Below, one piece after another: positions 3,152-21,179 of a DNA stretch of 21,587 nucleotides (within the stretch, counting starts at the first letter, position 1; the number at the start of each line of letters is the position of its first letter). A program made the position numbers and the translations under genes. Source of the DNA: a virus; IMG/VR virus record IMGVR_UViG_3300025732_000312, positions 1 through 21,587 of that record; one strand, 5' to 3'. Under the pieces are notes generated by a model. That model did no database searches and was not told where the DNA came from. It saw only the letters and a program-made list of their open reading frames with translations.

Positions 3152-3155
3152 CCTA

Positions 3156-3182: not shown

Positions 3183-3188
3183 CGCGAT

Positions 3189-3410: not shown

Positions 3411-3413
3411 AAT

Positions 3414-5548: not shown

Positions 5549-5551
5549 CCT

Positions 5552-5788: not shown

Positions 5789-5801
5789 TTTTCCACTAAA
5801 T
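5787..5801 (+). repeat. 15-base promoter-upstream motif, copy 2
   Basis: This is an exact copy of AGTTTTCCACTAAAT found at 3137-3151. It overlaps the last two bases of the preceding stop codon and lies 7 bases upstream of the TTGACA at 5809-5814. Confidence 0.6.
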
Positions 5802-5808
5802 TATTGGC

Positions 5809-5835
5809 TTGACAGTATAAAGTTTGATTTAATAG
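5809..5835 (+). promoter_or_regulatory. Promoter for the scaffold/capsid gene group
   Basis: A perfect -35 TTGACA (5809-5814) is followed after 15 bases by TAATAG (5830-5835), or after 13 bases by TTTAAT (5828-5833). The -10 is weaker than at the first promoter, but the 15-base spacing and the upstream 15-mer are shared. A direct repeat AAAGTTT (5819-5825 and 5842-5848, 23 bases apart) flanks the -10 and could be an operator. The leader to the ATG at 5861 would be about 20 bases. Confidence 0.55.
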
Positions 5836-5860
5836 AGGTCGAAAGTTTAAACATAAAATT

Positions 5861-6298
5861 ATGCACACAAAAACACTACATATAATCTTTGCTTTCTTAA
5901 TGGCGCTGTCTGTCATTGCTGTCTCAGTGATGATGTTCACCCCGCGAGAGCAGGTGGGGGCAAGCACCATACAAGGCAATGATTACATGTCTACATCTAC
6001 CGCCGCATCGAACGTGTATGGGGCGCAGATTCGCAGTTCATTGCTTAAAAATACACCAGGCTCTCTCGGAACTGTCATTGTCACAGGTGCCGCAGCAGGA
6101 ACAATTAACATCTACGACGCTACAACGACGAACATAACGCTTCGGGCCTCAAGCAAGGCGACAAGTACGCTTCTCATTGCGTCACTCCCCGCCTCACTCG
6201 CGGCAGGGGATTACGTTTTCGACGCTGAATACACGGACGGACTGTATGTTGACTTGGCTGACGGTGTAATGCCGACGACGACTATCACCTATCGTTAA
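5861..6298 (+). CDS. Exported or membrane-anchored beta-rich protein, 145 aa
   Basis: The N-terminus has a classic signal or anchor: MHTKTLH, then a hydrophobic stretch IIFAFLMALSVIAVSVMMF (about residues 8-26), then TPREQVGAST, where cleavage after VGA is possible. The mature part is small, Thr/Ser-rich and strand-rich (GTVIVTGAAAGTINIYDATT, then LPASLAAGDYVFDAEYTDGL), with no cysteine. It is the first gene after the 5809 promoter and sits where phages usually keep protease or scaffold genes. Similar 'ITVxGAAAGTINIYDATTTN' modules are, from memory, common in uncultured Patescibacteria-associated phages. It could be a surface or virion-associated protein; the actual role is unknown. Confidence 0.75.
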   Translation: MHTKTLHIIFAFLMALSVIAVSVMMFTPREQVGASTIQGNDYMSTSTAASNVYGAQIRSSLLKNTPGSLGTVIVTGAAAGTINIYDATTTNITLRASSKATSTLLIASLPASLAAGDYVFDAEYTDGLYVDLADGVMPTTTITYR

Positions 6299-6323
6299 AA
6301 ATTATTATTTAAGTGAAATTACT

Positions 6324-6464
6324 ATGAGTCTACTTAATGAAGCGAAACTTTCGAGCCTCAAGGACAAACTGCTTGAAGCTGAGGCAGAAAGGGTGCGGGA
6401 AGAACTCGAAGTAAAAGACGAGAAAGTTAAAAAGATTATTAAAAAGGTTTCTAAAAAGAAATAA
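6324..6464 (+). CDS. Highly charged coiled-coil microprotein, 46 aa
   Basis: This short frame lies between two membrane-anchored proteins, 3 bases before the ATG at 6468. The sequence MSLLNEAKLSSLKDKLLEAE continues as an uninterrupted Glu/Arg/Lys-rich helix and ends in a Lys cluster (KVKKIIKKVSKKK). Leu spacing suggests a short coiled coil. The basic end could bind nucleic acid or the acidic inner face of a membrane. Function is unknown. It is accepted as a gene because the start context (ACTATG), length and tight spacing match its neighbours. Confidence 0.6.
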   Translation: MSLLNEAKLSSLKDKLLEAEAERVREELEVKDEKVKKIIKKVSKKK

Positions 6465-6467
6465 AAT

Positions 6468-7028
6468 ATGAATCTAAAAGAATGGGGTGTAGTGGGAGTC
6501 GCGGCGCTTGCGCTTGTGGTCGGCTTCATGGGCTGGTCTAAGCCAGCAATCATCGTTGATTCAACGAAAGTTGATATTAACGCCATAAGTAGCGGCATCT
6601 ACGATGCAGTAGTGTCACGGATGTCGTCACTCGGCGCGGTATCAGTACTCACTTCACCGCAGGAATGGAATGGTGTCACAACCATTAACGAAAATCGTCG
6701 CTTCGCGCCTGGAACTTCGACTGTTGTTTCCCTCCCGGTAAATGCATCCTCTACCCTTGCGGTTATCTGCAAAGGCGGCGGCTTGAGTTTTGCACAGGAG
6801 TACGAAATCGCCGTTGGAGCAACGCCTAATGCGACAACAACGAGCCTCGGTAAGTTGTTTGTCCCGGCGAACAGGACAGCTTTCGTCGTTGCATCTACGT
6901 CAGGAAGAACTTTCTCAGAGAATTCTAAGGAGTTCATTAACCTTAAGATGGCAACGACTTCTGGAACAACTGTTTCGACTTCGTTAACGCCAACAGGTTC
7001 TTGCTCTTTCCAAGGAATCGCAATTTAG
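6468..7028 (+). CDS. Membrane-anchored Thr/Ser-rich protein, 186 aa
   Basis: A short N-terminal segment MNLKEW is followed by a hydrophobic helix (GVVGVAALALVVGFMGWS, about residues 7-24) typical of a signal anchor. The rest is beta-rich and Thr/Ser-rich, with SVLTSPQEWNGVTTINENRR, a Thr-Ala-Thr-Thr-Thr stretch, and exactly two cysteines (AVICKGG and TGSCSF) that could pair if the domain is exported. It follows the 46-aa charged gene by 3 bases and precedes the scaffold-like gene. Neither I nor the context gives a firm function. Candidates are a virion surface protein assembled at the membrane, or a protein that changes the host envelope. The neighbour at 5861 has a similar design. Confidence 0.75.
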   Translation: MNLKEWGVVGVAALALVVGFMGWSKPAIIVDSTKVDINAISSGIYDAVVSRMSSLGAVSVLTSPQEWNGVTTINENRRFAPGTSTVVSLPVNASSTLAVICKGGGLSFAQEYEIAVGATPNATTTSLGKLFVPANRTAFVVASTSGRTFSENSKEFINLKMATTSGTTVSTSLTPTGSCSFQGIAI

Positions 7029-7067
7029 CTTTAACGGTTATTCTACCTCAAAAGGAAAATACGTTTA

Positions 7068-7085
7068 TGCTTATCGTATAAAGCA
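7068..7085 (+). promoter_or_regulatory. Small hairpin upstream of scaffold gene
   Basis: TGCTTAT (7068-7074), a CGT loop, then ATAAAGCA (7078-7085) form a 7-bp stem with one bulged A, ending 14 bases before the ATG at 7100. No U-run follows, so it is not a normal terminator. It also contains TATAAA (7077-7082), which could act as a -10 box, but no -35 is visible. Confidence 0.3.
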
Positions 7086-7099
7086 AACAAAAATCAGTT

Positions 7100-7675
7100 A
7101 TGAGTACTGAAACAAACAATCAAGCAGAAGCCCCTGCTGTAAGTGGGGAGGGAGAAGAAGCAGCACAGGTCGAGACTATTGCAATCCCCAAAAAGGATTA
7201 CGAAGCTCTCAATCAGACTGTCGGCTCGCTGAAACGCGAACTCAAGGACTTGCGAAAAGCCTCTGAGATAGCGAAGGAAACTCCACAACAAAACCAAAAA
7301 CCAGAAGAATCTGCATTGTTACAAAAACTGGAAAGAATCTCCTTGCGACAAGCAGGGATTGACCACCAGGACGATATAGAACTAGCCAGAGCCACCGCTA
7401 AGAAATGGGGAGTTGATATAGACGAGGTGCTTATGGATGAGGACTTTAAGGTAAAGCTTGAACGTCAGCAGACAAAACGCTCCAACGAACTAGCAACATC
7501 CAATATCAGAGGTGGCCAAGGGCAGTCAGAAGCCAAAAATACCGCTGCATACTGGATGGCGAAAGGTGTTCCACCTTCGCGTGACCAAGTGCCTGACAGA
7601 AAGATTCGCGCAAAGATTACGCGTGCCATGATGGAAAAGGCGGGGACGAACGGCAAGACGTTCTATAACGATTAA
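7100..7675 (+). CDS. Scaffolding-like capsid assembly protein, 191 aa
   Basis: A hydrophilic, mostly helical protein just before the major capsid gene, the normal place for a scaffold. The start is acidic and disordered (TNNQAEAPAVSGEGEEAAQV), followed by a coiled coil (IPKKDYEALNQTVGSLKREL and on to about residue 60). After a Gln/Pro linker come a helical region around LLQKLERISLRQAGI and the segment ARATAKKWGVDIDEVLMDED. The basic C-terminus (DRKIRAKITRAMMEKAGTNG) would be the capsid-binding end, as in known scaffolds. No protease motif is visible. It ends in TAA 47 bases before the capsid start. Confidence 0.75.
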   Translation: MSTETNNQAEAPAVSGEGEEAAQVETIAIPKKDYEALNQTVGSLKRELKDLRKASEIAKETPQQNQKPEESALLQKLERISLRQAGIDHQDDIELARATAKKWGVDIDEVLMDEDFKVKLERQQTKRSNELATSNIRGGQGQSEAKNTAAYWMAKGVPPSRDQVPDRKIRAKITRAMMEKAGTNGKTFYND

Positions 7676-7693
7676 GGTCGGCAAAGCGGGTTC

Positions 7694-7714
7694 TCTGGTC
7701 TTACAAAGACTAGA
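7694..7714 (+). promoter_or_regulatory. Hairpin directly upstream of capsid gene
   Basis: TCTGGTCTT (7694-7702), ACA loop, AAGACTAGA (7706-7714) form a 9-bp stem with one G-U pair. It ends 8 bases before the capsid ATG at 7723, where a Shine-Dalgarno would normally sit. It may protect or present the start of the capsid mRNA. No U-tract follows, so termination is unlikely. Confidence 0.45.
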
Positions 7715-7722
7715 TTACCTAC

Positions 7723-8601
7723 ATGGCAGACACAGTAAACGTAATTACATACGAGACAGCCTATGAAGATGTACTTCAGGACCGTCTTGACCATCCGCAG
7801 ACATGGAAAGAGATGTGCGCAGTAACCATCACGGATACTCGCGTCATTTCCTCATCCTACATGTCCACCACTCCGACAGTCACAACTGTCACTCGTGGCA
7901 CAGGACATGACCTGACTCTCTACCAGGAGACAGCCGAAACGCTGACAATCTCTACGGGACGAGACTTGGGTATGTTCATGGATTGGGGAGATTTGGCACA
8001 GAGCCCGTGGTCAAAACCAGCGGAACTCTTTGACCGAATCGGTGCGCTTCTGAATGAGTACATTGAAGGCGCAGTTCTTGCAAACCACGCAGAATGGACT
8101 GACTTTGGTAACTCAAGTATTGGAAATGGCGGCGCTGCAACTGACCCGATAACGGTCAGCGCGTCCAACATTGACGATATTATCCGAGGTGTTAAGCGAC
8201 AGATTCGTGTCGGAAACGGACAGACGAGGATGAACCAGTATGGTGTCGGATTCGTTTGGCGTGCTGCTGACTTTGAGTTGCTTGAAGCGTTCGTACAGGC
8301 TAACGGCTTTACGACTGCTGACCAGGCTCTCAAGGAAGGCACCGTTGAAGGACTCCGCTATCTCGGCGCTGACCACTACTGGTCTAACGAACACACCGCA
8401 AACCATGTGTTTGCAGGAGTTAAGAAGACACAGCGCATCGGCATCCTTCGTGGCACATATGGCCGCGCTCACACGATAGATTTCCCTGCCTCATCGGAAA
8501 ACAACTTCCTTTCAGGACAGGCGTACTACTCGCGTGTAGATATTGGGCTCTTGCACCCTACTTCAATGGATGCGTTGAGTTTCGATGTCAACGTTGCTTA
8601 G
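7723..8601 (+). CDS. Major capsid protein, HK97-fold type
   Basis: The expected shell protein, 292 residues, placed right after the scaffold-like gene. It starts MADTVNVITYETAYEDVLQD and has a Thr-rich beta segment (YMSTTPTVTTVTRGTGHDLT). A helix-rich core follows (IGALLNEYIEGAVLANHAEW; ASNIDDIIRGVKRQIRVGNG), then an aromatic C-terminal part (GILRGTYGRAHTIDFPASSE). The alternating E-loop, spine-helix and P-domain order fits an uncleaved HK97-fold capsid of small size. No N-terminal scaffold domain or cleavage signal is seen, consistent with a separate scaffold gene. The gene is bracketed by two hairpins and three short tandem repeats, suggesting special handling of its mRNA. Confidence 0.85.
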   Translation: MADTVNVITYETAYEDVLQDRLDHPQTWKEMCAVTITDTRVISSSYMSTTPTVTTVTRGTGHDLTLYQETAETLTISTGRDLGMFMDWGDLAQSPWSKPAELFDRIGALLNEYIEGAVLANHAEWTDFGNSSIGNGGAATDPITVSASNIDDIIRGVKRQIRVGNGQTRMNQYGVGFVWRAADFELLEAFVQANGFTTADQALKEGTVEGLRYLGADHYWSNEHTANHVFAGVKKTQRIGILRGTYGRAHTIDFPASSENNFLSGQAYYSRVDIGLLHPTSMDALSFDVNVA

Positions 8602-8623
8602 ACGTAGCTTAAACGTCGCCTAA
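8591..8623 (+). repeat. Three tandem 11-base repeats across the capsid stop codon
   Basis: ACGTTGCTTAG (8591-8601), ACGTAGCTTAA (8602-8612) and ACGTCGCCTAA (8613-8623) are head-to-tail imperfect copies of ACGTNGCYTAR. The first copy contains the last capsid codons and the TAG stop. Each copy also carries an in-phase-looking TAG or TAA at its end. Purpose unknown; slippage-derived duplication of the gene end is possible. Confidence 0.5.
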
Positions 8624-8635
8624 TTGTTCTTATAT

Positions 8636-8662
8636 CCCGTCCTTGCAAACAGAGAGGACGGG
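8636..8662 (+). terminator. Strong hairpin after capsid gene (no U-tract)
   Basis: CCCGTCCT (8636-8643) and AGGACGGG (8655-8662) form a perfect GC-rich 8-bp stem with an 11-base loop, 35 bases past the capsid stop. No run of T follows, so it is not a textbook intrinsic terminator. It may stabilise the 3' end of capsid mRNA, act as a processing site, or give partial termination to keep downstream tail genes lower. Confidence 0.5.
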
Positions 8663-8690
8663 AATATGAGAAGAATAAATACATAATTTT

Positions 8691-9377
8691 ATGCCAATCG
8701 CAGATATAATTTCCGACATCTATTTCAAGACCAAGACCAATTCTGCCGACTACCCCGCAGCGGACATGCTCATTCATATCAACCGCGCGTATAACGATGT
8801 GGTCAGTCAGATTTTGAGCGCGGATGGACGATGGCAATGGGATGACGACAACCAGAGTGATTTTTCCATCGCAACAACGGCACTTGTCTCCTCACAGAAA
8901 GATTACTCAATGGCAGTCAGTCACCTCAAGATATTGCGCGTTGAATTACTCCCTAACGGGGAAACGGATTACATAAAACTTGACCCAAAGGACGAAGCTG
9001 ATGAATCACTGGCAATGGATACCTCGTCAACAGGAACACCGGCATGGTATGACTTAGTTGGCGGCTCGATTTTCCTTTACCCCACACCCGACTATTCCCA
9101 AGCATCTTCACTCAAGGTGTATTTCCAGCGCGGCCCCGATGAGTTTACATCAGGACAAGTGACGACAGGAACCAAAAAGCCTGGCTTTGCCTCGCTGTTC
9201 CATGCCCTCATCCCACTCAAGGTGTCATTTAATTACTGTGTGGCGAACGGTCTTCCGATGGCGAACGGCTATTTACAGGAAATCCTCAGAATGGAGAAAG
9301 AACTAAAGGCGTTTTATGGCAAAAGAGACAAAGATGACCGTTCTATTATGAGAGGTAAGCGGATTCTCTACATCTGA
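8691..9377 (+). CDS. Head-tail adaptor (head completion) protein
   Basis: A 228-residue protein right after the capsid gene, the standard place for the connector that sits under the portal. It starts with helices (ADIISDIYFKTKTNSADYPA, then MLIHINRAYNDVVSQILSAD). The centre has the feature I associate with short-tailed phage adaptors, GTPAWYDLVGGSIFLYPTPD followed by LKVYFQRGPDEF. C-terminal helices follow (MANGYLQEILRMEKELKAFY), with a basic tail MRGKRILYI that could insert into the portal. It ends TGA-T-ATG into the next gene. The family assignment rests on this pattern and on context. Confidence 0.75.
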   Translation: MPIADIISDIYFKTKTNSADYPAADMLIHINRAYNDVVSQILSADGRWQWDDDNQSDFSIATTALVSSQKDYSMAVSHLKILRVELLPNGETDYIKLDPKDEADESLAMDTSSTGTPAWYDLVGGSIFLYPTPDYSQASSLKVYFQRGPDEFTSGQVTTGTKKPGFASLFHALIPLKVSFNYCVANGLPMANGYLQEILRMEKELKAFYGKRDKDDRSIMRGKRILYI

Positions 9378-9378
9378 T

Positions 9379-9786
9379 ATGGCTTCATTCGTAAAATTTA
9401 ACAGTTTTGTTGAGGCTGTTGCTGAGAAAACCCACAACCTCGGCTCCGATACCCTCAAGGTAGCCCTCACGAATACCGCACCAAACGCAACAGACACGCA
9501 GCTATCCAACATCACCGAGATTTCGTACACTAACTGCTCTGCGCGAACAATCACAACCTCATCCTCGTCGCAATCATCGGGAACGTATAAGCTCGTGCTT
9601 GCTGATTTGACGCTTACCGCATCAGGGTCAGTAGGCCCGTTTCGCTATGTCGTCATCTACAATGACACGGCCACGAATGACGAACTGATTGGCTACTATG
9701 ACTACGGTTCAGCGGTAACACTTCAGGCATCAGACCAGTTCGTTATTGACTTTGACGGCACCGCAGGGGTGCTCACCATCGCTTGA
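9379..9786 (+). CDS. Phage structural protein, 'KFNSF...SDTLKVALTNTAP' type, 135 aa
   Basis: The start MASFVKFNSFVEAVAEKTHN, followed by LGSDTLKVALTNTAPNATDT, is a pattern I have seen in many tailed phages as a small structural protein of the neck, tail or capsid surface. The remainder is beta-rich (FRYVVIYNDTATNDELIGYY, then an end segment FVIDFDGTAGVLTIA). It has one cysteine and no membrane part. Placed between the adaptor and fibre-like genes, it could be a decoration, neck or tail-surface protein. It is joined to both neighbours by the same TGATATG junction, which suggests tight co-translation with equal stoichiometry control. The exact role is unproven. Confidence 0.75.
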   Translation: MASFVKFNSFVEAVAEKTHNLGSDTLKVALTNTAPNATDTQLSNITEISYTNCSARTITTSSSSQSSGTYKLVLADLTLTASGSVGPFRYVVIYNDTATNDELIGYYDYGSAVTLQASDQFVIDFDGTAGVLTIA

Positions 9787-9787
9787 T

Positions 9788-10654
9788 ATGCAGACGATTG
9801 CTTTCGATGCGGCATCTTCCTCAAACACAACTGGCGGCTCTCCGTTTACTTGGAGTCATACATGCACTGGTTCCAATCGTATCTTGATAGTGGGTCTTAT
9901 CAACGCTGCTGGCGACCAAGTTACGGGCGTCACCTACAACGGCGTCGCAATGACTCAGATAAATAAGCAAAATGTTTTCGGAGGTACAGAGGTATATCTA
10001 TACTATCTCTTAGCTCCTGCCACTGGCTCTAACACGATTTCAGTTTCCAAATCTTCTGGCAACATGGCAGGTGCCGCCGCTTCATATACTGGAGTAAAGC
10101 AATCTGGTCAACCAGACGCAAGCACGACTGCTACGACGGGCAGTTCCACAACGCACGCTGAGGCTCTGACTTCGATTGCAGATAACTGTTGGCATGTCTC
10201 TGGGGTATTCGGCGGCACCCTTAATGCAATTTCAGCAGGAACGGGGACAACTGTTCGCGTGAATAACACCACGACCCAAAATGCGGCAATAGGCGATAAT
10301 AACGCAGCGATTACTCCCGCTGGCTCAAATACGCTGAATTTCTCTGCTTCTTCAATGAATTGGGCATCTAATGGAATCACCATTTCTCCTGCTCCCGACA
10401 TCTACACGCTCACAGCGGGAACAGGCTCATTCACATTCACAGGCAATGCCGCCTTGTTCTATCGCCTCTACACACTCACCGCATCTGTCGGCTCCTTTGT
10501 CCTGACAGGAGTTTCCGCAACACTCACGCACATAATCAAATGGGCGATGCCGTCACGAAACTCATCCTCACAATCCAATCAGTCAAAGAACAGTTCTTCG
10601 TGGGTAAATCAAAGCAAAGACTCAAGCACCTTCAATAACCAGACACGCAACTGA
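9788..10654 (+). CDS. Beta-sandwich tail/virion surface protein, 288 aa
   Basis: I place the start at 9788, not at the in-frame ATG 42 bases upstream, because 9788 gives the TGA-T-ATG junction used by both neighbouring genes and avoids a 41-base overlap. N-terminal domain: MQTIAFDAASSSNTTGGSPF, then TWSHTCTGSNRILIVGLINA, an immunoglobulin-like beta-sandwich seen in phage and bacterial surface proteins. Two short repeats follow near residues 205-250 (YTLTAGTGSFTFTGNAA and YTLTASVGSFVLTGVSA). The end is a low-complexity Asn/Gln/Ser/Lys tail (SQSNQSKNSSSWVNQSKDSS). This modular build fits a tail surface or fibre-base protein. Exact attachment unknown. Confidence 0.75.
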   Translation: MQTIAFDAASSSNTTGGSPFTWSHTCTGSNRILIVGLINAAGDQVTGVTYNGVAMTQINKQNVFGGTEVYLYYLLAPATGSNTISVSKSSGNMAGAAASYTGVKQSGQPDASTTATTGSSTTHAEALTSIADNCWHVSGVFGGTLNAISAGTGTTVRVNNTTTQNAAIGDNNAAITPAGSNTLNFSASSMNWASNGITISPAPDIYTLTAGTGSFTFTGNAALFYRLYTLTASVGSFVLTGVSATLTHIIKWAMPSRNSSSQSNQSKNSSSWVNQSKDSSTFNNQTRN

Positions 10655-10655
10655 T

Positions 10656-12248
10656 ATGAAGACAATCGTCATTGACAATTTCTCACGGGGCATCGCAGAC
10701 GACAGATATAATGGCGTTACTGGCGAGTGTGGCTTTTGTAAGCACTTCGACATCCTCACTCATCCCCGCAGACTTCAACCGCTTCGCGGGATGTCAACGG
10801 ATACCGCCAGCACCACAATCGGCAACATCATCGTCGCGTCAAATGGTTTCCTCTATGGTGTTGGTGTTGATGGAAGCAACCCAAGCAACGGTAAGCTCTG
10901 GGTCAGGGCCGATAACAACACGACAGCAAGCTCTACAGGCTCATTTGGTGCATCTTCCACATGGCGTGCGCTCACTAATAACCAACTTTCAGGAGCAACG
11001 GTGAATTATGATTTAATTGTCGAGAACCCTGACGCTGGACAGGTTCGTACACTCTATTGGGCCTCAAATAATCTCATAGTTGCCTCTGACCCGCTCGGCG
11101 CATCTTCAGCAAGCACAGACGCGCTCACATTCTCGTCTATCGGGCAAGGTATCCTGCATCCGAAGGATAAGACTATCTATTTCCCATACAAAACATCATC
11201 AGCACACTACATCGCACTGATAGCCCCAAACGCTACGGCTTTCGGTGGGAAGAACTATACAGCATTTACCCTACCCTTCCTCTACCGCTGCTACTGCCTC
11301 TCCTATTACGGCAACTACCTTGCAATCCCCATGACCTCGGTCAATGGTATTGGAGTCAACGGCTCTGTCGTCGCCTTGTGGAATAGAGACACTTCGACAA
11401 CTACGCTCGATGAGACAATCCCGTGGGGCGCAGGGAAGCTACAGGTGCTCAATAACCTCAATGGCGTCCTCGTTGGTGTCAACACACTCTCTGCCGCGTA
11501 CTCAGGTTCCTTCCAAGATTACGACGCTATTCAGATTAAGATGTGGGCTGGTGGTGCTGAACCAACACTCCTCAAGGAACTAAAAGCGATACATCTTGCG
11601 GGGTCAAACCAGCCTACAGTTACCATAAATCCGCGCGTCAACTTCATTTACAACAACCGCCTCTACTTCTCGGTCAACGTCAATCCGAATGACGGCAAAC
11701 AGGCTGCATGGTATGGGCTGTGGTCAGTCGGGAAAAACAAGCTCACAGGCGAATGGACTGTCTCGATGGAGCGTGTTGAGACTAACTCAAACACTGGTAC
11801 AGGCGTTATTGCAGCGGCTATATCAGGCGACTTCGTTTCGATGGCGCATACTGCAGAAGGAACGCTTACCTATACATCCAATGGCGTTACATCATCGAGC
11901 ACCTATGGCGCAACGTCCGTCTACGAGAGCTTGGTTAATCCTGGCATGGACCCCGCCGACAAGATGCGAAAAAAGAAACTCTACGCAATCCAAGTCAACT
12001 GTCTTCCACTCCCTTCGTCAGCATCACTTGTCCTCAAGTACCGAATAGACAGCGACGGTGACTCGTCTGATTGGGTGACACTCAAAACCTACTCGACTAC
12101 TGACGGCAGTTCATTCGATGTCCCTAATATTCCAAGCTCGGGGAAATCAGATGGCTACAATATCGAATTGCGGCTTGAGAGTACGGGCGGTGCAGTGCCG
12201 ATTGCATTTGCGTATAAGTACGATGTCCTTTCTTCAAACACACTATGA
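10656..12248 (+). CDS. Large beta-rich tail protein, possible nozzle/propeller
   Basis: A 530-residue protein starting MKTIVIDNFSRGIADDRYNG, with the motif ILTHPRRLQPLRGM soon after. Repeating strand pairs (GNIIVASNGFLYGVGVDG, LYWASNNLIVASDPLGASS, NNLNGVLVGVNTLSAAYSG, PRVNFIYNNRLYFSVNVN) suggest a beta-propeller. The end is a separate beta-sandwich (LVLKYRIDSDGDSSDWVTLK). In podoviruses the protein after the adaptor is the tail nozzle, which is also propeller-based, so this is the leading candidate; another tail-tip protein is possible. It has five cysteines, mostly near GECGFC and RCYC. It overlaps the next gene by ATGA. Confidence 0.65.
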   Translation: MKTIVIDNFSRGIADDRYNGVTGECGFCKHFDILTHPRRLQPLRGMSTDTASTTIGNIIVASNGFLYGVGVDGSNPSNGKLWVRADNNTTASSTGSFGASSTWRALTNNQLSGATVNYDLIVENPDAGQVRTLYWASNNLIVASDPLGASSASTDALTFSSIGQGILHPKDKTIYFPYKTSSAHYIALIAPNATAFGGKNYTAFTLPFLYRCYCLSYYGNYLAIPMTSVNGIGVNGSVVALWNRDTSTTTLDETIPWGAGKLQVLNNLNGVLVGVNTLSAAYSGSFQDYDAIQIKMWAGGAEPTLLKELKAIHLAGSNQPTVTINPRVNFIYNNRLYFSVNVNPNDGKQAAWYGLWSVGKNKLTGEWTVSMERVETNSNTGTGVIAAAISGDFVSMAHTAEGTLTYTSNGVTSSSTYGATSVYESLVNPGMDPADKMRKKKLYAIQVNCLPLPSSASLVLKYRIDSDGDSSDWVTLKTYSTTDGSSFDVPNIPSSGKSDGYNIELRLESTGGAVPIAFAYKYDVLSSNTL

Positions 12249-12583
12249 ATCCTGATGAAGCACAATCTATGCGTGATAGGATAGCAAAACTGGAAGCGCA
12301 ACTCGATTTCTTCATTCGCGCCACAACGTATGAGTTCAAGCGAACCATTAAGGGCGACCCTAACGGATTACGAATCGGCGACAAAGCAAGTGATAAACTC
12401 GGCTTCATGGGGAAAACTCCAATAGCACAATGGTCATCAGGTACAGGAAGACAGGACGTTGTTGATAATACAGGCTCGGCGGCAAATGTCGGCTTCAGGG
12501 CGACTGGCAACACTGGCTCAACTGGTTATTCATTAGGCGATGTCGTCGCCTTTCTTAAAACAATAGGCTTATTCGCGCCGTGA
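12245..12583 (+). CDS. Small fibre-type structural protein, 112 aa
   Basis: Starts inside the stop of the preceding gene (ATGA). A short N-terminal coiled coil (AQSMRDRIAKLEAQLDFFIR) could trimerise the chain. The remainder has the phage fibre signature NGLRIGDKASDKLGFMGKTP followed by IAQWSSGT, and closes with LGDVVAFLKTIGLFAP. In my experience the pattern 'IxIGxxxxxKLGFxGxTPI.Q' plus a terminal Leu-rich helix occurs at the ends of many phage virion proteins, often as a trimer capping or collar element. There is no Cys and no signal peptide. A role as a small tail fibre or collar protein is likely but not proven. Confidence 0.7.
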   Translation: MNPDEAQSMRDRIAKLEAQLDFFIRATTYEFKRTIKGDPNGLRIGDKASDKLGFMGKTPIAQWSSGTGRQDVVDNTGSAANVGFRATGNTGSTGYSLGDVVAFLKTIGLFAP

Positions 12584-12595
12584 TATTCTTATTAT

Positions 12596-14350
12596 ATGGC
12601 AACTATTAAAAACGGTAATTTTGTAGGGAATGGCTCGATTGTGCCTGGGGCTTCTTCGGGGTATCAAACTCCATCAAACCTAGTGCCAGTTCTTGACCAG
12701 CAAATGCAGATTTTCGCTAATAAAAACCCTGAACAGGCTAACCTTGCGATGGATGCTTATGGCTATTCAAAAGTTCCTAGTTATTCCCCTGCTGCCCCTA
12801 TATCTTCCGCCGTACTTGCCCCCCAAGCACCAATAAGACTCCCCCAATATCCACAGGGTGATAATCCGTTCACAACGAACGCAAGCATCCCAACCCCACA
12901 ACAGATTGTGACCGCATCGCCAACAAACGCAGAAAACTCACAAAATGAGTATCTAAAGAAAATTGCGGAACTTACAGGAGCAGGTTCAAGCCTCGCTACA
13001 TTTCAAAGTCAGCAAGAACAGGCGGCAGGTATCCCAGGACTGGCGAAAACTCTGAATGACATAGGTGCACAAATAATGGGTCTGAACGACCAGGCCGCCG
13101 CTTTGCAGAACGAAGCGCAGTACACGATTCCGAACGCCGCACAAATCTCAGCAGAAGGGCGTGGAATAACAACGGGAGGACTTGCCCCGATTACCGCTTC
13201 TCAGTTACGTTTGAACCAAATTAAGCAAGGAGCAATTGCCACACAAACCCTCACCCTTAAAAGTGCCTACTACGCAGCACAAGGAAACTATGCGCTCGCA
13301 AAAGACGCAGCAGACAAGGCGGCACAAGTTCAATTCGATGCTCAGGAGCGAGAAATTGCTTACAAAAAAGCGCAACTAGATGCAATCGCCCCGACATTAA
13401 ACAAAGAGGAAAAGCAAAGAGCGGCAATTCAGCAAGCTCAGCTTGACGACAGGAAGCGTCTACTGGACGACGCTAAGCTGGAAAAACAGAACGTAAATCA
13501 AGTGATGATAACTGCCGCTAAATATGGTGCTGATTCTGCTACATTGCAGAAGATAGCTCAATCGAATAGCTATGATGAAGCAATCATTAGCGCAGGTTCT
13601 TCTCTCGTAGACCCTAAAGCAAAGTATGAGCTTGAGTCAGCGAAACTTGAAAACACACTGAGACAGATGCAGATAAATAAACTTTCATATGAGACAGGCT
13701 TGCTGAAAAAATATGGTGGAATGACTCCATCGCAGTATTCTGATTATTTGAAAGAGCAGAAAAAGGCGATAAATGAAACGAAAGATGCTAGTTCTAAATC
13801 CTATCAGCAGGGAATCGCGTTACAGGAAAAGATTGACGTAATAGATGCGGCACTTAATAGTCCAGCGCTTAAAACAGCTGTTGGAACTAACTTTTTATCT
13901 CGTTCACCTTCGACTTTTTTGGGGAGCGCGGGAGCCTTCATTTTTGGCGGCGCTCCATCAGTCCTCGGTGGTGCATTGAATACGGCGACTGGCGCTACGC
14001 AAGACTTCATCTCATCTACTGAGCAGTTAATATCTAAAGAATTCTTGCAGAACCTTATAGACGTTAAAGCTCAAGGGGCCACCTTCGGAGCACTTACAGA
14101 AAAAGAACAACAAGCACTCACTGATGCGGCCACAAAAATCGGAAGATGGAGGGTGAAAAATTCCAGTGGCGATGTGACTGGATATAACATAGATGAGGAT
14201 AATTTCAGACGAGAAATGAATCGAATCAAGGCTCTCGCAACAAAAGCCTATCAGAAAGCAACAGGAGAAGTCTGGGCTCCTGATGAGCAAAAGATGTGGG
14301 ACGATTTAGAGAATTCCATGTCTGGTGTTAGCTTTAATCCAGCATATTAA
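12596..14350 (+). CDS. Large helical internal virion (ejection) protein candidate, 584 aa
   Basis: The first ~100 residues are Pro/Ser/Gln-rich and disordered. A long Ala/Gln/Lys-rich helical region follows (YYAAQGNYALAKDAADKAAQ through KEEKQRAAIQQAQLDDRKRL), consistent with coiled coil. Around residues 441-461 there is a Gly/Ala-rich hydrophobic patch (LGSAGAFIFGGAPSVLGGAL) that could meet a membrane. After it comes a block I recall from other phage virion proteins (LISKEFLQNLIDVKAQGATF, then GALTEKEQQALTDAATKIGR). No catalytic lysozyme or protease motif is visible. Position between tail genes and fibres fits the ejected internal proteins of short-tailed phages. A minor tail protein is the alternative. 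Confidence 0.65.
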   Translation: MATIKNGNFVGNGSIVPGASSGYQTPSNLVPVLDQQMQIFANKNPEQANLAMDAYGYSKVPSYSPAAPISSAVLAPQAPIRLPQYPQGDNPFTTNASIPTPQQIVTASPTNAENSQNEYLKKIAELTGAGSSLATFQSQQEQAAGIPGLAKTLNDIGAQIMGLNDQAAALQNEAQYTIPNAAQISAEGRGITTGGLAPITASQLRLNQIKQGAIATQTLTLKSAYYAAQGNYALAKDAADKAAQVQFDAQEREIAYKKAQLDAIAPTLNKEEKQRAAIQQAQLDDRKRLLDDAKLEKQNVNQVMITAAKYGADSATLQKIAQSNSYDEAIISAGSSLVDPKAKYELESAKLENTLRQMQINKLSYETGLLKKYGGMTPSQYSDYLKEQKKAINETKDASSKSYQQGIALQEKIDVIDAALNSPALKTAVGTNFLSRSPSTFLGSAGAFIFGGAPSVLGGALNTATGATQDFISSTEQLISKEFLQNLIDVKAQGATFGALTEKEQQALTDAATKIGRWRVKNSSGDVTGYNIDEDNFRREMNRIKALATKAYQKATGEVWAPDEQKMWDDLENSMSGVSFNPAY

Positions 14351-14352
14351 AT

Positions 14353-15834
14353 ATGGCATTTACACCAGAAGAACAGCAAATAATAAACTGGAGTAGACAG
14401 AATGGTAAGACAGTCCAAGAAATGAAGGACGCAATCTTTCGGTATAGAACTACCGGCTCTCCTGCTGCACCGCAGAGTGAGAAACAGGGGTCAACAGTAG
14501 GACAAGATGTAGCTATTGGAGTGGCAAAGGGCGCGGGAGAAACGGCTAAATTCCTTGGTGGCACAGCAGCTCGCGCAGCCGCACAAGCTTCAGGCTTTAA
14601 TGTTATTCCTGGCGTGCGCGAATCTGTAGATACATCTGTTGGCAAAGTGCAGGATGCAATAGGACTTTCTGATAAGAATCTTGAAGCAACAAACACCGCA
14701 CAAAAAGTCGGAAAGGGCATCGAGGTTGCGGCAGAATTAGCCTCGCCACTCATTGTTGGAAAACTCGCTGGAGTCGCAGAACAAGGCGCAAAAGTACTTG
14801 AATCTAAGTTACCAAAGCCAGGGAAGGTGACGCAATTTGTTAAAGATGCACGGCTCGCACTTTCAGACATTGACCCGCAGGTGGAGACTGTATTACAGCG
14901 CAGCACCTTCGATGAGGTTAATAAGTATTTTCAACAGGCCAAAAATGCAAAAGCAGACCCTACAAAATACACCCCACTAGAATTGGCTGGACAAAAAGCC
15001 GAGGATGCCTTTGATGAGATAAACAAAGCTCGTAAGGCTGCTGTGCAAGGAAAGAAGAAGATATTGGATACCGTGGCAACACAGCGCGTTTCTGGGAATA
15101 CCATAAATGATGTAATGTCCACGGGTATTCAGAGGATTAGCGAGAAGTTTGGGGCAAAAATATCGGCCAAAGGTGAAGTTTCTCAGGCCAAGGGTCGCAC
15201 CCTTCAGTTGGACGATAAAGATACTAAGCTCATCGGAGATTATTTCTCACGCCTTAATTCTTTGGGTATCTCCCCTTCCGTTAAGCAAGTGGATGATTTC
15301 GTTGATTGGGCGCAGTCGCAGCTGTATAAGCAGAGCAAAACAGTAAGTAAGTATGAAGTTGCGTCTGAACCAGTCGTAAGAGAATTACAGAGTGTAACTG
15401 GCGACCTGAATTCAAGGCTCAAAGGAGCTGTGGGTAATGGCTATGGTGAAGTCAACGCCCGTATATCAAAACTCATAGAGCTTCAAGATGAACTTTCAAG
15501 CGCACTTGGCGCAGACGCAAGAAAGGGCGGTGGCCTAATGAAGCGTCTTTTTAGCCCTACTGGTGGGAATGTGCGAAAAGTGTTTGAGGAAATCCAAAAA
15601 GAAACGGGTATTGACCTCAGTAAAGAGGCCACACTTGCTAAGTTTGCAATGGAGGGCGTCGGTGATGTACGACAGCAATCACTTCTAAAGCAACTCGATG
15701 TTTTGAGTAAGGACGCAGGAGAACTCGACCTCACAAAGCCGATGTCAATAATCCGATTTATAAGAGAGCGCGCCGACTTAGACGCGCAGGAATTGGCTAA
15801 CGAGATAGTCCGTCGCGCTTCTTCATCCCAATGA
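14353..15834 (+). CDS. Second internal virion/ejection protein candidate, 493 aa
   Basis: Starts 2 bases after the previous stop in the AAATATG context. The N-terminus (EEQQIINWSRQNGKTVQEMK) looks like a small helical binding module. Next come Gly/Ala-rich, moderately hydrophobic segments (VAIGVAKGAGETAKFLGGTA; AAELASPLIVGKLAGVAEQG) that could insert in membranes, and then a long charged helical domain to the end (LQSVTGDLNSRLKGAVGNGY; KPMSIIRFIRERADLDAQEL). No enzyme motif is seen. Paired with the gene before it, this suggests a two-protein ejection set that forms a conduit through the cell envelope. This is inference from composition and order. Confidence 0.65.
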   Translation: MAFTPEEQQIINWSRQNGKTVQEMKDAIFRYRTTGSPAAPQSEKQGSTVGQDVAIGVAKGAGETAKFLGGTAARAAAQASGFNVIPGVRESVDTSVGKVQDAIGLSDKNLEATNTAQKVGKGIEVAAELASPLIVGKLAGVAEQGAKVLESKLPKPGKVTQFVKDARLALSDIDPQVETVLQRSTFDEVNKYFQQAKNAKADPTKYTPLELAGQKAEDAFDEINKARKAAVQGKKKILDTVATQRVSGNTINDVMSTGIQRISEKFGAKISAKGEVSQAKGRTLQLDDKDTKLIGDYFSRLNSLGISPSVKQVDDFVDWAQSQLYKQSKTVSKYEVASEPVVRELQSVTGDLNSRLKGAVGNGYGEVNARISKLIELQDELSSALGADARKGGGLMKRLFSPTGGNVRKVFEEIQKETGIDLSKEATLAKFAMEGVGDVRQQSLLKQLDVLSKDAGELDLTKPMSIIRFIRERADLDAQELANEIVRRASSSQ

Positions 15835-15932: not shown

Positions 15933-16649
15933 ATGCCACAGGAAAACGAAACACAGCAGAATTTCAAATCCCTCATGCGTCTTTTGGATACTAAGAATAC
16001 CGCAGACAAGCTGTTGGAGGCTTTTGGCGCTATAGTAAAAGCTCTCACCTCCCTTAAATCAGAAACTATCCAAGAACAGGAGACTCTAAAGCAGAGTGTA
16101 AAAGATGCGTTAGCGACCCTCGAACTCGCTATAGCATCCATTAAAAATGGCATAGATGGGAAAGACGGTGCGCCTGGTAAAGATGGGCGTGACGGTATTG
16201 ACGGTGCTCAAGGTCCGAAGGGCGAAGACGGAAAGGATGGCAAAGATGGGCAGAATGGAAAAGACGCGCCGTTTGATACTGCGGAAGATGTAAGAAACAA
16301 ATTAGAACTCTTGCAAGGAAATGAGCGTCTTGATAAGTCGGCCATTAAAGGACTCGATGAGGAATTTCAGAGAGTGGCCGCTACTCGTGGTCAAGGTGGC
16401 GGTATATCGCAAATTGCACTTCAAATGGCGATGGCGAAACTCATCAAACATGAAGTCCACGCTACGACATCAGCAACGACCACAATCACGTTATCTGACC
16501 GTGTGGCGCACAATACAGTAATCTGGGCCTACTATAACGGCCAGCTCATGTCGCTCGGACAGCAATACACCGTATCAGGGAATACAGTCACCCCCGCATT
16601 TACTCTTGATAATGACTCTGAATGGGAGTTTACTTTCTTTAGAGGCTGA
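15933..16649 (+). CDS. Collagen-like tail fibre protein, 238 aa
   Basis: Three parts are visible. (1) A helical/coiled-coil N-terminus, residues about 1-70 (NFKSLMRLLDTKNTADKLLE; VKDALATLELAIASI). (2) A perfect collagen-like run of 13 Gly-X-Y triplets, residues 73-111 (16149-16265), rich in GKD. It lacks the proline content of animal collagen and relies on Lys-Asp pairs, as bacterial and phage collagens do. (3) A C-terminal beta domain (LSDRVAHNTVIWAYYNGQLM, then VSGNTVTPAFTLDNDSEWEF) of the kind that caps phage fibres. Such proteins form trimers. It lies directly before the giant repeat fibre, and both are likely host-contact parts. Confidence 0.85.
   Translation: MPQENETQQNFKSLMRLLDTKNTADKLLEAFGAIVKALTSLKSETIQEQETLKQSVKDALATLELAIASIKNGIDGKDGAPGKDGRDGIDGAQGPKGEDGKDGKDGQNGKDAPFDTAEDVRNKLELLQGNERLDKSAIKGLDEEFQRVAATRGQGGGISQIALQMAMAKLIKHEVHATTSATTTITLSDRVAHNTVIWAYYNGQLMSLGQQYTVSGNTVTPAFTLDNDSEWEFTFFRG
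16149..16265 (+). repeat. Collagen-like coding repeat, 13 GXY triplets
   Basis: Thirteen consecutive Gly-X-Y codon triplets with no interruption, dominated by GKD and GID. The reading GIDGKDGAPGKDGRDGID starts the run and GKDGKDGQNGKD ends it. This predicts a triple helix in the fibre shaft. Confidence 0.9.
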
Positions 16650-16652
16650 CGT

Positions 16653-19600
16653 ATGCAATATCTCTCAACAGGAATAGCGGCACTCATGATGGGGATTATG
16701 GGCTTCTTTGGCTTTCAAAGTGCCACACAGTTTGGTGCTGGCCCGTCCGTTCTCAAAGTGCAGCAGGGAGGCACTGGCGCATCCACATTTACTGTTGGAG
16801 ATTGTCTTGTCGGTAACGGAACAAGCCCCATAACAACTCAGCCATGTTCAGCGGGTGGCGGTGAAGCCAATACAGGTGGCTCACTCGGTACTGGTCTTAA
16901 TATTTATGACAGTAAATCGGGCGTGCAGTTGCGCTTCAACACACTCGCGGCAGGTTCAAATATCACACTGTCTACAACGACAAACGACAACACCATCGTC
17001 ATTGCTTCTACTGCGTCAGGGGGTACAGGTTTCTCAACTACCTCTGCCGACTACTACCGTTCCGTCACTGGCCGCGTCGCAACCTCGGCAGCAGAAACAG
17101 CAGGGCAGCTACCTTACTGGACTAGCTCTAATGCCAATCCTGCAACACTTGGGGGCATAGCTACTGGCACTGTGTCCTCATCAGGCGGCATCACGACAAC
17201 CGCATCTCGCTACGTTCTCAACGGCGCACTCGCTATCTCGTGTGATGTTGCGTCGGGTTCCATTCCAGGGTGTCTCTCCGCGGCAGATTGGACTACATTT
17301 AATAATAAGGCGTCGTTTGGCTATCCATTCCCCTCGAACGCCACAACCTCAGTTCTCACATTCAGCACTGGAACAATTCAGGCAAGTTCAACTGTCGGCA
17401 ATCTCACCGCGACATCCACATTCGCACTTCCAGTATCAGGATTGCTCAAAGGCAATGGCGTTAGTAGCGCAGTCACCGCAGGAGCAAACGGCACCGACTT
17501 TACTCTTATATCTGCACAAACCTGTTCCGCAGGGCAGCATGTCTCGGCTATTTCTGCATCAGGCGCAGTCACCTGTTCAGCGGATACAGACCTGTTTGCC
17601 TACCCATTCCCGAATAACGCAACGTCCACAGCACTCACATTCAATGGCGGTCTTACCTCAGCGACTTCAACGAGCGGCACACTCAACGCTGGCTCGATAA
17701 CGGCCACATCTTCCTATAGAGGCGCAGGACTGACGGCTGACTGCGACACGGCTGCAACATCAAAACTCTTGTGGGACATAACGACAGGGCAATTCTCTTG
17801 CGGCACGGACCAAACTGGTGCTGGTGGTGGAGCGTACCCATTCACACCAACCACGAACCTTGGTGTACTCACTCAGGCCACGACAGGCATCCCGTTCTTC
17901 CAAAATGGGTTTCAGGCTTCGTCTACTTCATACCTCACGAACGCATCATCAAGCATCCTTACATCGAAGGACATTTATTCAGCACGCATCAGGCCGAACG
18001 TACCTGGCTCCAGTCTCTTTCTGACAGACACGAGCTTCAATAATTACGTCGAACTTGGTGACACATACATAAGCGTCTACAGTAGCAACAGCCTCGTATT
18101 TAACTCGGACGGAACGATGACATGGAGCGCATCAGGGGCAGACTATAAGTTCCAAGGAAGTCCTGCCGTTTACGGTATTGAGGATTATTCCAATCTTACA
18201 ACGGTTGACCGCACATTTTCTCACCCTGACTGGTCTGGTGAATACGTCATCTCAACTTCAACGACTCAGGTATCGAGCATCACAGCTACCAGTACATCCG
18301 CATCATCAACCTTCCAAGCGGGAGCTTATTTCGGCGGTTCCGTTCGGACCAACATTCTCGGATGTAATACCACACAGAAGATAGCGACGAACGGAAGCGG
18401 GTATTTGTTCTGTGACACGGACGCTACGGGCGGCGGCTCTGCATCCTCAACCCTTCTTACTGACTTCAACACATGGGATGGTCAGCAGCGTTTCAGGGCA
18501 GACCTTCGCTTCCCTTCGGGACTCGGGACGTTCTTTTTCACTAGCACTGACGATTCAACGATTTACGCAGGACTCTATGGTTACAACACAAATCAGATGG
18601 CGATACAGGGTGCCAACGGATTTAGCGCCATCCTCGACCTTTCTCTCATCACTCAAGACAAAATTATATTCGTCCCAGACCTCCCTGGTACGCTCTGCAT
18701 AAAGGACGGAAACTGCGCCGCAACGACGACCAGCAACACCTGGGCCGGAACGCAGACATTCGATAACCTTATTGTTACAGGAACCTGTACGGGGTGTGGA
18801 ACAGGTACTTCACTAGATTACACAGCGTGGGGAGGCTCTATTGCATCAACTTATGGCACGACCACCATCGCCTCGACGACTCCCGCTTGGTTTAAGATGG
18901 GAGTTTATGCTTCGAGTACATCGCAACTCAAATATGCCTCATCAACTGCGTTGACTGTAAGTGGTAAAATCTTCACCCCAAACATTGCTACAGTAGACCA
19001 AGATTCACCCGCGACAATCACTGTAAAAGGGGGCGACACAACTCTTTCAGGGGGGACAGGCGCAATAGCAATTCTCCAGGCTGGTGCAGGACTGGATAGT
19101 GGCGCTGGTGGAATAGCAGAAATCAAGGGCGGCAACGGAGGTGAAACTGGTAATGGAGGTGGAATTGACCTTGATGGCGGTTTCGGTGGCGGTTTGGGCG
19201 GTAATGGTGGTCCCATAAATCTATACGCAGGGGACGCATCAGATGGAAATTCAACTGGAGGGGATATTACATTCAACACAGGAGCGGGGGCAGGAACAGG
19301 GATAAACGGACGATACATATTCAATGCAGCAGACGCTCCATTTGATGCGTACTTCTACTTCAACCAACTTGTTACTGCGGTTCGCAGTTACTTCTATCCG
19401 AATGTTTCTGGTACAGTAGCCGTCGGCGTCGCGACAACTTCTTCTGGGGTAGCCTATTGGGGAACTGACAGCGGACTATACTCTGGCGCTACAACAACCC
19501 TCGTCGCCGGAACAAATATCTCCTTCTCTGCGACTCCCGTTATTCTTGGTTCTTCACCCATTACCATAAGCGCATCTGGTGGTGGCTCATCGTTTGGCCA

Positions 19601-21179
19601 AGCCTTCGAGCTAAACTCAAACGGCCTTCTCGCCCCGACGACCACGAAAAGTATCGCAATCAACGGAAGCGCGACTTCGACATTTGCCGCTGGCGTAGAA
19701 GCACCTGGCATCGGAACACCGTGGTTCTCAGCCACATCTACAACTGCGACAAGCACTGTCGCCTTCGGCCTCAATGTCGGTCAGCTAAATCAAACGGGAA
19801 CAGCCACAAGTACATTCGCGCGAGGCATCACGCTTGCAAACGGATGTTTTGCTATCGGCGTCAACTGTCTACAGACCATCTATTCCATCGGCACAGGTCT
19901 TTCCCTTTCCGGTGGCGCACTCACAAATACTGGCATCATCTCGGCATCGTGCTCTGGCGGTACGGTCTGCTCAGGCACAAACCCGCTCTCAATAAGCAGC
20001 TTCTCGTATCCGTGGACCAACACCACATACGGAACCTCTCTCGCCGCCGCGACAACCACCACAATTAAATTCGCTGATGCCACTATCGCTTCGTCTACTA
20101 TAGGAAATCTACAGTCGGGTGCGCTCACGGCAACCTCGTCCTTCGCTCTCCCTGTCTCCGGCGTGCTCAAGGGCAATGGTGTGACAAGCGCAGTCACCGC
20201 TGCTGCCAACGGCACAGACTTCACCCTCATATCTGCAACGACATGCGGTGGCACTGATAAGGTTTCAGCCATCTCCGCTTCAGGAGCCGTAACATGCTCC
20301 GCAGACCAGACGGGTGGCGGCTCGTCATTCGGCCAAGCGTGGGAAATCAACACCAACGGCTTGCTCGCGCCTACTACGACCAAGAGTATCGCCGTCACCG
20401 GAACCGCAACGTCAACATTCTCGAAAGGCGTTGAGGCTTCTGCAATAGGAACACCCGTTCTCTATGCGACCTCTACTTCTGCCACATCTTCCTTCGCGTG
20501 GGGCGTTCATGTCAACGCGCTCAACATCATAGGAACCGCCACCACTACATCGAATTGGGGTATCACGATTGCCAACGGCTGCTACGCCCTCAACAACACA
20601 TGCAACCTGAACATCACATCAGTAGGAACGGGGCTGACATTCACATCTGGGGCGCTGTCGTTGAACCAAGCCGCAAACCTCACCTGGACAGGCTCACATG
20701 ACTTCGGTGGCGCATCAGCCTTAGAGGTTCCGAACGGCACGAGCTTCACTTTCTCAGCGACAGGCCAAGTCTACTATGACACCACGGACAACCAATGGCA
20801 GATTGGTACTACATCAGCCAACAGTCCCCGCGCCGTTCCTACAATCACCAGGCTGTGGAGCGGAACTGTTGCATCTTCTTCGGTGGACTTCGTATCGGGT
20901 GGACGTATCCCGCTCTACCCTCATAGGGATGGTGTGGTCATAACTGAAATCAACTGTGTCGTGGATGGGGGAACTTCCAAGGCCATCAACATCGACACCC
21001 TCGCAGGAGGCTCCAACACTGACGGCCTCACTTGTGCCACAACCAACACCTCAGACACGTCAATGTCTGCAAACTACAACATTACAGCAGGAACACCGAT
21101 GGCACTTGAGTTTGGAGCCACGACTGGTTCTGTAGACTACGTTACATTCGCTGTCTGGGGCTACATACAGCCAGAATAG
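16653..21179 (+). CDS. Giant exported repeat fibre with paired cysteines, 1508 aa
   Basis: The N-terminus MQYLSTGIAALMMGIMGFFG is a hydrophobic signal or anchor, followed by the phage-fibre motif VQQGGTGAST and VGNGTSPITT. The body is Thr/Ser/Gly-rich, with many 'TATSTF' units. Near-identical blocks: LPVSGxLKGNGVxSAVTA...ISASGAVTCSAD at residues ~250-312 and ~1150-1218, and SSFGQAxExNxNGLLAPTTT...NGCxAxxxxC at ~976-1072 and ~1221-1317. A Gly-rich beta-helix-like block spans ~790-889 (KGGNGGETGNGGGIDLDGG). It has 24 cysteines, falling into 12 neighbouring pairs. The last ~150 residues (YYDTTDNQWQIGTTSANSPR, TRLWSGTVASSSVDFVSGGR) form a distinct tip domain. Most likely the receptor-binding or adhesin fibre. 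The export signal is odd for a tail fibre; a host-derived adhesin is the alternative. Confidence 0.8.
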   Translation: MQYLSTGIAALMMGIMGFFGFQSATQFGAGPSVLKVQQGGTGASTFTVGDCLVGNGTSPITTQPCSAGGGEANTGGSLGTGLNIYDSKSGVQLRFNTLAAGSNITLSTTTNDNTIVIASTASGGTGFSTTSADYYRSVTGRVATSAAETAGQLPYWTSSNANPATLGGIATGTVSSSGGITTTASRYVLNGALAISCDVASGSIPGCLSAADWTTFNNKASFGYPFPSNATTSVLTFSTGTIQASSTVGNLTATSTFALPVSGLLKGNGVSSAVTAGANGTDFTLISAQTCSAGQHVSAISASGAVTCSADTDLFAYPFPNNATSTALTFNGGLTSATSTSGTLNAGSITATSSYRGAGLTADCDTAATSKLLWDITTGQFSCGTDQTGAGGGAYPFTPTTNLGVLTQATTGIPFFQNGFQASSTSYLTNASSSILTSKDIYSARIRPNVPGSSLFLTDTSFNNYVELGDTYISVYSSNSLVFNSDGTMTWSASGADYKFQGSPAVYGIEDYSNLTTVDRTFSHPDWSGEYVISTSTTQVSSITATSTSASSTFQAGAYFGGSVRTNILGCNTTQKIATNGSGYLFCDTDATGGGSASSTLLTDFNTWDGQQRFRADLRFPSGLGTFFFTSTDDSTIYAGLYGYNTNQMAIQGANGFSAILDLSLITQDKIIFVPDLPGTLCIKDGNCAATTTSNTWAGTQTFDNLIVTGTCTGCGTGTSLDYTAWGGSIASTYGTTTIASTTPAWFKMGVYASSTSQLKYASSTALTVSGKIFTPNIATVDQDSPATITVKGGDTTLSGGTGAIAILQAGAGLDSGAGGIAEIKGGNGGETGNGGGIDLDGGFGGGLGGNGGPINLYAGDASDGNSTGGDITFNTGAGAGTGINGRYIFNAADAPFDAYFYFNQLVTAVRSYFYPNVSGTVAVGVATTSSGVAYWGTDSGLYSGATTTLVAGTNISFSATPVILGSSPITISASGGGSSFGQAFELNSNGLLAPTTTKSIAINGSATSTFAAGVEAPGIGTPWFSATSTTATSTVAFGLNVGQLNQTGTATSTFARGITLANGCFAIGVNCLQTIYSIGTGLSLSGGALTNTGIISASCSGGTVCSGTNPLSISSFSYPWTNTTYGTSLAAATTTTIKFADATIASSTIGNLQSGALTATSSFALPVSGVLKGNGVTSAVTAAANGTDFTLISATTCGGTDKVSAISASGAVTCSADQTGGGSSFGQAWEINTNGLLAPTTTKSIAVTGTATSTFSKGVEASAIGTPVLYATSTSATSSFAWGVHVNALNIIGTATTTSNWGITIANGCYALNNTCNLNITSVGTGLTFTSGALSLNQAANLTWTGSHDFGGASALEVPNGTSFTFSATGQVYYDTTDNQWQIGTTSANSPRAVPTITRLWSGTVASSSVDFVSGGRIPLYPHRDGVVITEINCVVDGGTSKAINIDTLAGGSNTDGLTCATTNTSDTSMSANYNITAGTPMALEFGATTGSVDYVTFAVWGYIQPE
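17401..17590 (+). repeat. Fibre module A, copy 1
   Basis: Encodes NLTATSTFALPVSGLLKGNG then ISASGAVTCSAD. The same module returns at about 20100-20307 with most residues kept (LKGNGVTSAVTAAANGTDFT). Protein identity appears higher than base identity, so the copies have diverged mainly at silent sites. Confidence 0.75.
19578..19869 (+). repeat. Fibre module B, copy 1
   Basis: Encodes GGGSSFGQAFELNSNGLLAP through ITLANGCFAIGVNC. It is repeated at 20313-20603 with the same order of sub-motifs (SSFGQA, NGLLAPTTTKSIA, GTATSTF or SATSTF, GIGTP or AIGTP, ANGC). Confidence 0.8.
20100..20307 (+). repeat. Fibre module A, copy 2
   Basis: Second copy of the LPVSG...GAVTCSAD module first seen at 17401-17590. 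Here it directly precedes module B copy 2, so the A-B order occurs once as a unit in the C-terminal part. Confidence 0.75.
20313..20603 (+). repeat. Fibre module B, copy 2
   Basis: Second copy of the SSFGQA...NGCxAxxxxC module first seen at 19578-19869; residue differences cluster in the middle (SKGVEASAIGTPVLYATSTS versus AAGVEAPGIGTPWFSATSTT). Confidence 0.8.

Follow-up and report, generated by a model that had tools for sequence, protein, structure and literature searches.

A giant phage fibre protein with 24 cysteines in 12 consecutive pairs and a hydrophobic N-terminal leader, from a probable Patescibacteria phage

The locus and the cysteine pattern of its giant fibre

The window, meaning the whole 21.6 kb stretch of DNA analysed, is part of the genome of a podovirus-like phage, and relatives of this phage show links to Patescibacteria. 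Its genes run in the order small terminase, large terminase (PF04466), portal, scaffold, major capsid, tail, nozzle-like protein, two internal-virion-type proteins (both Cys-free), collagen-like fibre and giant fibre. Family matches back the terminase and collagen names; the portal, scaffold, capsid, nozzle and internal-protein names come from position and from an order conserved in relatives. The main features are:

780..15834, + strand: podovirus-like packaging, head and tail genes, assigned by family matches, position or conserved order
15933..16649, + strand: collagen-like fibre (PF01391) with 0 Cys and without a leader; it lies immediately before the giant fibre and serves as synteny landmark
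16653..21179, + strand: giant fibre ORF, 1508 aa, ATG start, 24 Cys in 12 consecutive pairs
16653..16742, + strand: N-terminal hydrophobic leader of the giant fibre, MQYLSTGIAALMMGIMGFFGFQSATQFGAG
20838..21176, + strand: C-terminal jelly-roll-like beta-sandwich head of the giant fibre, modelled by AlphaFold2

Two further proteins with hydrophobic N-terminal leaders are encoded between portal and scaffold (5861-6298 and 6468-7028); leader-bearing ORFs are also present at that location in L330, L332, L083 and L087, and L331 and L090 have one or both of them. The ORF that follows the giant fibre (21183-21587) begins with the leader MELVRKAIALILCFFTACPAP, whose final TAC resembles a lipobox, and runs past the window end.

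The giant fibre had no family match in Pfam, PHROGs or NCBIfam and no match in an annotated phage collection; those relatives that were tried had no family match in Pfam or NCBIfam, and PDB sequence searches gave weak chance matches only. A sequence-only reading had counted 24 cysteines in 12 neighbour pairs with particular spacings, and our recount on the ORF agrees exactly. The pairs are as follows, with residue positions and the number of residues (X) within each pair:

16803..16847, + strand: pair 1, C51-X13-C65, in a GGTGASTFTxGxCLxGNGTxxITTxxC module
17241..17273, + strand: pair 2, C197-X9-C207, in the common fibre motif xxLSxxDWTTFNNK
17523..17576, + strand: pair 3, C291-X16-C308, TCxxxxxVSAISASGAVTC
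17742..17801, + strand: pair 4, C364-X18-C383, in a DCDxxxxxKLLWDxTTGxFSCGTD module
18363..18413, + strand: pair 5, C571-X15-C587, with a C-X15-C counterpart in L114 and a similar pair in L173
18696..18716, + strand: pair 6, C682-X5-C688, LCIKDGNC
18786..18797, + strand: pair 7, C712-X2-C715, GTCTGCG
19845..19868, + strand: pair 8, C1065-X6-C1072, NGCFAIGVNC
19950..19970, + strand: pair 9, C1100-X5-C1106, SASCSGGTVCSG
20244..20297, + strand: pair 10, C1198-X16-C1215, second copy of the pair-3 module
20580..20603, + strand: pair 11, C1310-X6-C1317, NGCYALNNTC
20955..21035, + strand: pair 12, C1435-X25-C1461, within the head; its first Cys is conserved and the partner position varies between homologues

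The pair-4 module is common to the giant fibre and to giant Patescibacteria chromosomal proteins. The spacing of pair 6 equals that of the CLTGDTCRTTWP module in L234, L236 and L096, and a C-X2-C like that of pair 7 is also present in G003, G005 and L238. The two repeated contexts pointed out previously are both real, TCxxxxxVSAISASGAVTC occurring at pairs 3 and 10 and NGCxAxxxxC at pairs 8 and 11, and the 12 pairs fall in ten distinct contexts.

The alternation of short pairs with longer gaps, also claimed from the sequence, is borne out by nearest-neighbour counts and permutation. All 24 cysteines are mutual nearest neighbours, and the summed within-pair distances come to 148 residues against about 724 expected if they were randomly placed. 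Pairing as strong was reached by 0 of 200,000 uniform placements and by 1 of 200,000 shuffles of gap order. The ten other amino acids examined (W, M, R, K, Q, E, D, Y, F, P) do not alternate in this way along the chain. Histidine is scarce, with only 5 residues in 1508.

The head domain (the C-terminal 110 residues) was modelled by AlphaFold2 as a monomer with pLDDT blocks mostly at 77-93, falling to 65-68 around the C1461 loop. Its fold look-alikes, at Z of about 8, are phage fibre, fibre-tip and cement domains, CBM36/6 and nucleoplasmins; the fold search gave a generic jelly-roll and no specific family. The DCDxxxxxLLWDxTTGxFSCG module (module B below) is predicted, with moderate confidence in its secondary structure, to form a hairpin with the second Cys in the second strand.

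Joint gain and loss of cysteines in homologues

If neighbouring cysteines are bonded, as the sequence-only reading proposed, homologues should gain and lose them in pairs, and they do: across six Cys-pair modules no genuine instance has just one of the two cysteines, and in the head domain a conserved Cys swaps its partner. To guard against circularity, the alignments used to search for module A, the pair-2 motif and module B had X in place of Cys. Module A (GGTGA...LxGNGTxxIT) was found with both cysteines in 4 instances, a single one in 0 and neither in 60; for the pair-2 motif LSxxDWTTFNNK the corresponding counts are 7, 0 and 145, and pooling the two gives 11 both-Cys, 0 single and 205 Cys-free instances. 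Module B has both cysteines in 85 of 85 full instances, a count from which 20 matches ending at the module edge were set aside. Modules C (5/5), D (6/6) and E (15/15) likewise have both in all 26 genuine instances, look-alikes in unrelated frames having been excluded by eye.

The claimed link between paired cysteines and export also stands. All 11 both-Cys instances of module A and the pair-2 motif are in leader-bearing proteins, and the syntenic gene is leader-bearing in every relative examined. In leaderless proteins 46 of 46 module A instances and 123 of 123 pair-2 motifs have neither cysteine. Leader-bearing proteins have both cysteines in 4 of 18 module A instances and in 7 of 29 pair-2 instances (Fisher 0.005 and 5e-6, respectively; the instances share ancestry, and these P values are guides, not exact). 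The other leader-bearing instances (14/18 and 22/29) are Cys-free; export alone needs no staples.

The first Cys of the head domain is conserved in leader-bearing homologues except L233. Its partner lies 23-35 residues further on in the window, L234, L236, L238 and L102, and 60-64 residues on, in the last strand, in L173, L096, L037 and L232; the two alternatives never occur together in one homologue, and the pair is absent from the leaderless L235 and L244. Such switching would be hard to explain other than by a bond.

Cysteine parity was counted in non-redundant fibre-like phage proteins that have any Cys, 21 leader-bearing and 37 leaderless. Counts are even in 19 and odd in 2 of the leader-bearing proteins (P 1e-4), and even in 20 and odd in 17 of the leaderless ones. 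The two odd clusters with leaders are L144 (7 Cys) and L155 (1 Cys, its leader probably false). Two independent proteins have the same look: L234, of the same design, with 1773 aa, 24 Cys in 12 ordered pairs and a canonical signal peptide ending SYANA|Q, and L173, with 20 Cys in 10 pairs and again a canonical signal peptide.

Signal-peptide fibre-like proteins were also seen in phages apparently unrelated to the window group (L259, L265, L289, L321), some having a C-X9-C form of LSxxDWTTFNNK and others not. A second family in the phages of the window group (L030, L032, L034, L038, L044, L066, L070, L091) begins with a membrane segment, continues with GATxTTIQGSDTLSxSR-like and GGTGSTTLSSNQVLLGNGT-like stretches, and usually has exactly two Cys.

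Leader, gene slot and host

Leaders were called where a 13-residue Kyte-Doolittle mean reaches at least 2, a hydropathy criterion rather than a trained predictor. An export-type N-terminal segment had been proposed for the giant fibre, and a hydrophobic leader is indeed present, both in the window and in syntenic relatives; the window leader is homologous to the L114 leader region MKLLKLFLIGITGFLMGLLFFVPYFGNAQ (43% over 65 aa, E 3e-16 for that comparison). The window copy has no Lys or Arg ahead of the hydrophobic core and no clear Ala-X-Ala or other cleavage site, and so its leader may be an uncleaved anchor or the protein may not be exported. Several syntenic relatives have leaders with a basic start and an Ala-X-Ala end, for example MKKLSLILVGLLLGVGVSVQA, MKHVLWFVLASLLFGTAVYA and MRNLIVIAAVLAFLAANYVAYA. 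We infer Sec export for the window protein.

The giant fibre belongs to a late structural block, beside the tail genes, whose order is conserved in relatives. In 8 of 8 related genomes the collagen-like fibre is followed by a slot whose fibre-like product starts with a leader, either hydrophobic or of signal-peptide type; G013 has no collagen match and its slot was placed by position, and the leader of the partial G030 copy (MNEIITALTTFFIGLGSLFTPAEP) was judged by eye and not by threshold. Five of these slot fibres are complete (2074, 1172, 988, 523 and 392 aa) and three are partial, ending with the fetched region or the contig. Including the window there are six complete slot fibres, with 24, 8, 18, 2, 6 and 6 Cys, all even and all fitting consecutive pairs. 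The leader criterion flagged none of the portal, scaffold, capsid, tail, nozzle, internal and collagen genes of the eight relatives.

Portal relatives were found at no fewer than 80 IMG/VR loci (at least 80), one of them within nzgw467, a MAG that a published study treats as belonging to Patescibacteria and as having three predicted prophages. The host is probably a member of the Patescibacteria, tiny parasitic bacteria whose listed genomes are mostly 0.5-1.4 Mb, an assignment that draws on binning and on shared modules. The Patescibacteria chromosomal proteins L214, L215 and L216 (G242) and L212 and L213 (G201) are 3674-4793 aa long with up to 48 Cys, almost all in strictly ordered C-X16-18-C pairs.

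A DsbA-like family (PF13462) was found in 108 of 145 Patescibacteria genomes and VKOR (PF07884) in 50 of 145, often adjacent. A published survey reports that MdbA-like oxidoreductases are enriched in CPR bacteria and adjoin VKOR (PMC6744442). None of 31 related or comparison phage records was found to have a DsbA-like gene, and any oxidation would then fall to the host.

Interpretation and known systems

We consider it probable that the giant fibre is an exported modular phage fibre that folds in an oxidising envelope, its cysteine pairs closing local disulphide staples. The pairing, the joint gain and loss of cysteines, their occurrence as pairs in leader-bearing proteins only, the constant place of the gene and the oxidative-folding genes of the host phylum are computational observations; the disulphides are very probable, judging from paired and export-linked cysteines. 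A long, beta-rich, modular fibre would be made as a late structural gene product of a podovirus-like Patescibacteria phage, be exported across the cytoplasmic membrane by its hydrophobic leader, and fold in the oxidising envelope of the host. There each of the 12 pairs would close a local disulphide, probably aided by a host MdbA/DsbA-like oxidase and VKOR. The staples would most likely stiffen short modules, hairpins or loops, strung along a thin fibre working outside the cell, and one of them (pair 12) would close the jelly-roll head. The role that we infer is receptor-binding or adhesive: the fibre would be displayed outside the infected cell and may join virions on release. The sequence-only proposal of a disulphide-stapled fibre that folds outside the reducing cytoplasm thus gains support from the paired, export-linked cysteines; the fibre may end up on the virion or on the infected cell.

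Location is where the strongest competing explanation differs. The protein might be a secreted phage adhesin or surface-layer-like coat of the infected cell, no part of the virion, serving superinfection exclusion or epibiont attachment. This is a real though doubtful possibility: the leader points to the cell surface, and module B, with the same paired cysteines, occurs in Patescibacteria chromosomal proteins of up to 4793 aa, as would suit a mimic of giant host surface proteins; yet the gene holds a fixed slot in the tail gene block directly after the collagen-like fibre in the relatives examined, and its motifs are of fibre type and its head domain resembles fibre tips. Gene position and motifs, then, favour a fibre, and the leader and shared host modules favour the cell surface. 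It seems less probable, and rather unlikely, that the protein joins the virion inside the cytoplasm, its hydrophobic N-terminus acting as virion anchor, and that the cysteine pairs oxidise only after lysis. The sequence-only reading had offered staples that form after release as its own alternative, and this may still be the case. The gene does lie in the operon of virion proteins, directly behind the collagen-like fibre gene, and as a signal peptide the window leader is atypical; however, several syntenic relatives have canonical, cleavable-looking signal peptides, and leaderless phage fibres with the same motifs, which also meet oxidising conditions after lysis, never have the pairs.

Metal binding or cluster formation by the pairs, with no disulphides, is very improbable. 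One C-X2-C pair would suit it, but spacings range from 2 to 25, the pairs are far apart, there are few His, and even Cys counts go with export. That the pairing arose by chance or by repeat duplication has next to no likelihood: two modules are duplicated internally (pairs 3/10 and 8/11), but the number of distinct contexts and the existence of independent proteins of the same design speak against it, and the permutation and homologue tests rule it out.

The fibres of tailed phages are ordinarily synthesised and folded inside the reducing cytoplasm. We found no published precedent for exported or disulphide-bonded tail fibres in the open literature, and one may exist elsewhere. A conserved slot for a fibre built for export and oxidative folding would mean that these phages employ the secretion and disulphide-forming systems of the host for a protein of the virion structure or the surface, and it raises the question of the route by which such a fibre could get onto virions put together in the cytoplasm. 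One tentative answer, which we hold less likely than its opposite, is a two-compartment phage, in which the fibre is exported, oxidised by host MdbA/VKOR and joined to virions only afterwards, either at the envelope or once the cell has lysed; if so, the leader-bearing head-block proteins would belong to the same strategy. A leader, an even Cys count and ordered pairs together provide a sequence signature for such fibres in uncultivated phages.

Ordinary tailed-phage fibres share with the giant fibre the GGTGA...GNGT and LSxxDWTTFNNK motifs and a beta-rich composition; most of them, however, have no export leader, and the leaderless ones never have paired Cys at the motif positions. The giant Patescibacteria chromosomal proteins with DCDxxxxxLLWDxTTGxFSCG repeats have the same Cys-pair module, ordered pairs and, in several cases, leaders, but differ in being chromosomal, in reaching 4793 aa and in the dominance of one module type. 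Bacillus endospore appendages (Ena) are disulphide-linked pili, extracellular fibres reinforced by disulphides as the giant fibre would be; Ena consist of small subunits with cross-links between subunits, and their jelly-roll is among the head-domain look-alikes, a generic fold match with no sequence relation found. Actinobacterial pilins (e.g., FimA of Actinomyces oris) are surface fibres oxidised via MdbA/VKOR, a pathway that CPR also encode (PMC6744442), and differ from the giant fibre in being sortase-assembled host pili rather than phage proteins.
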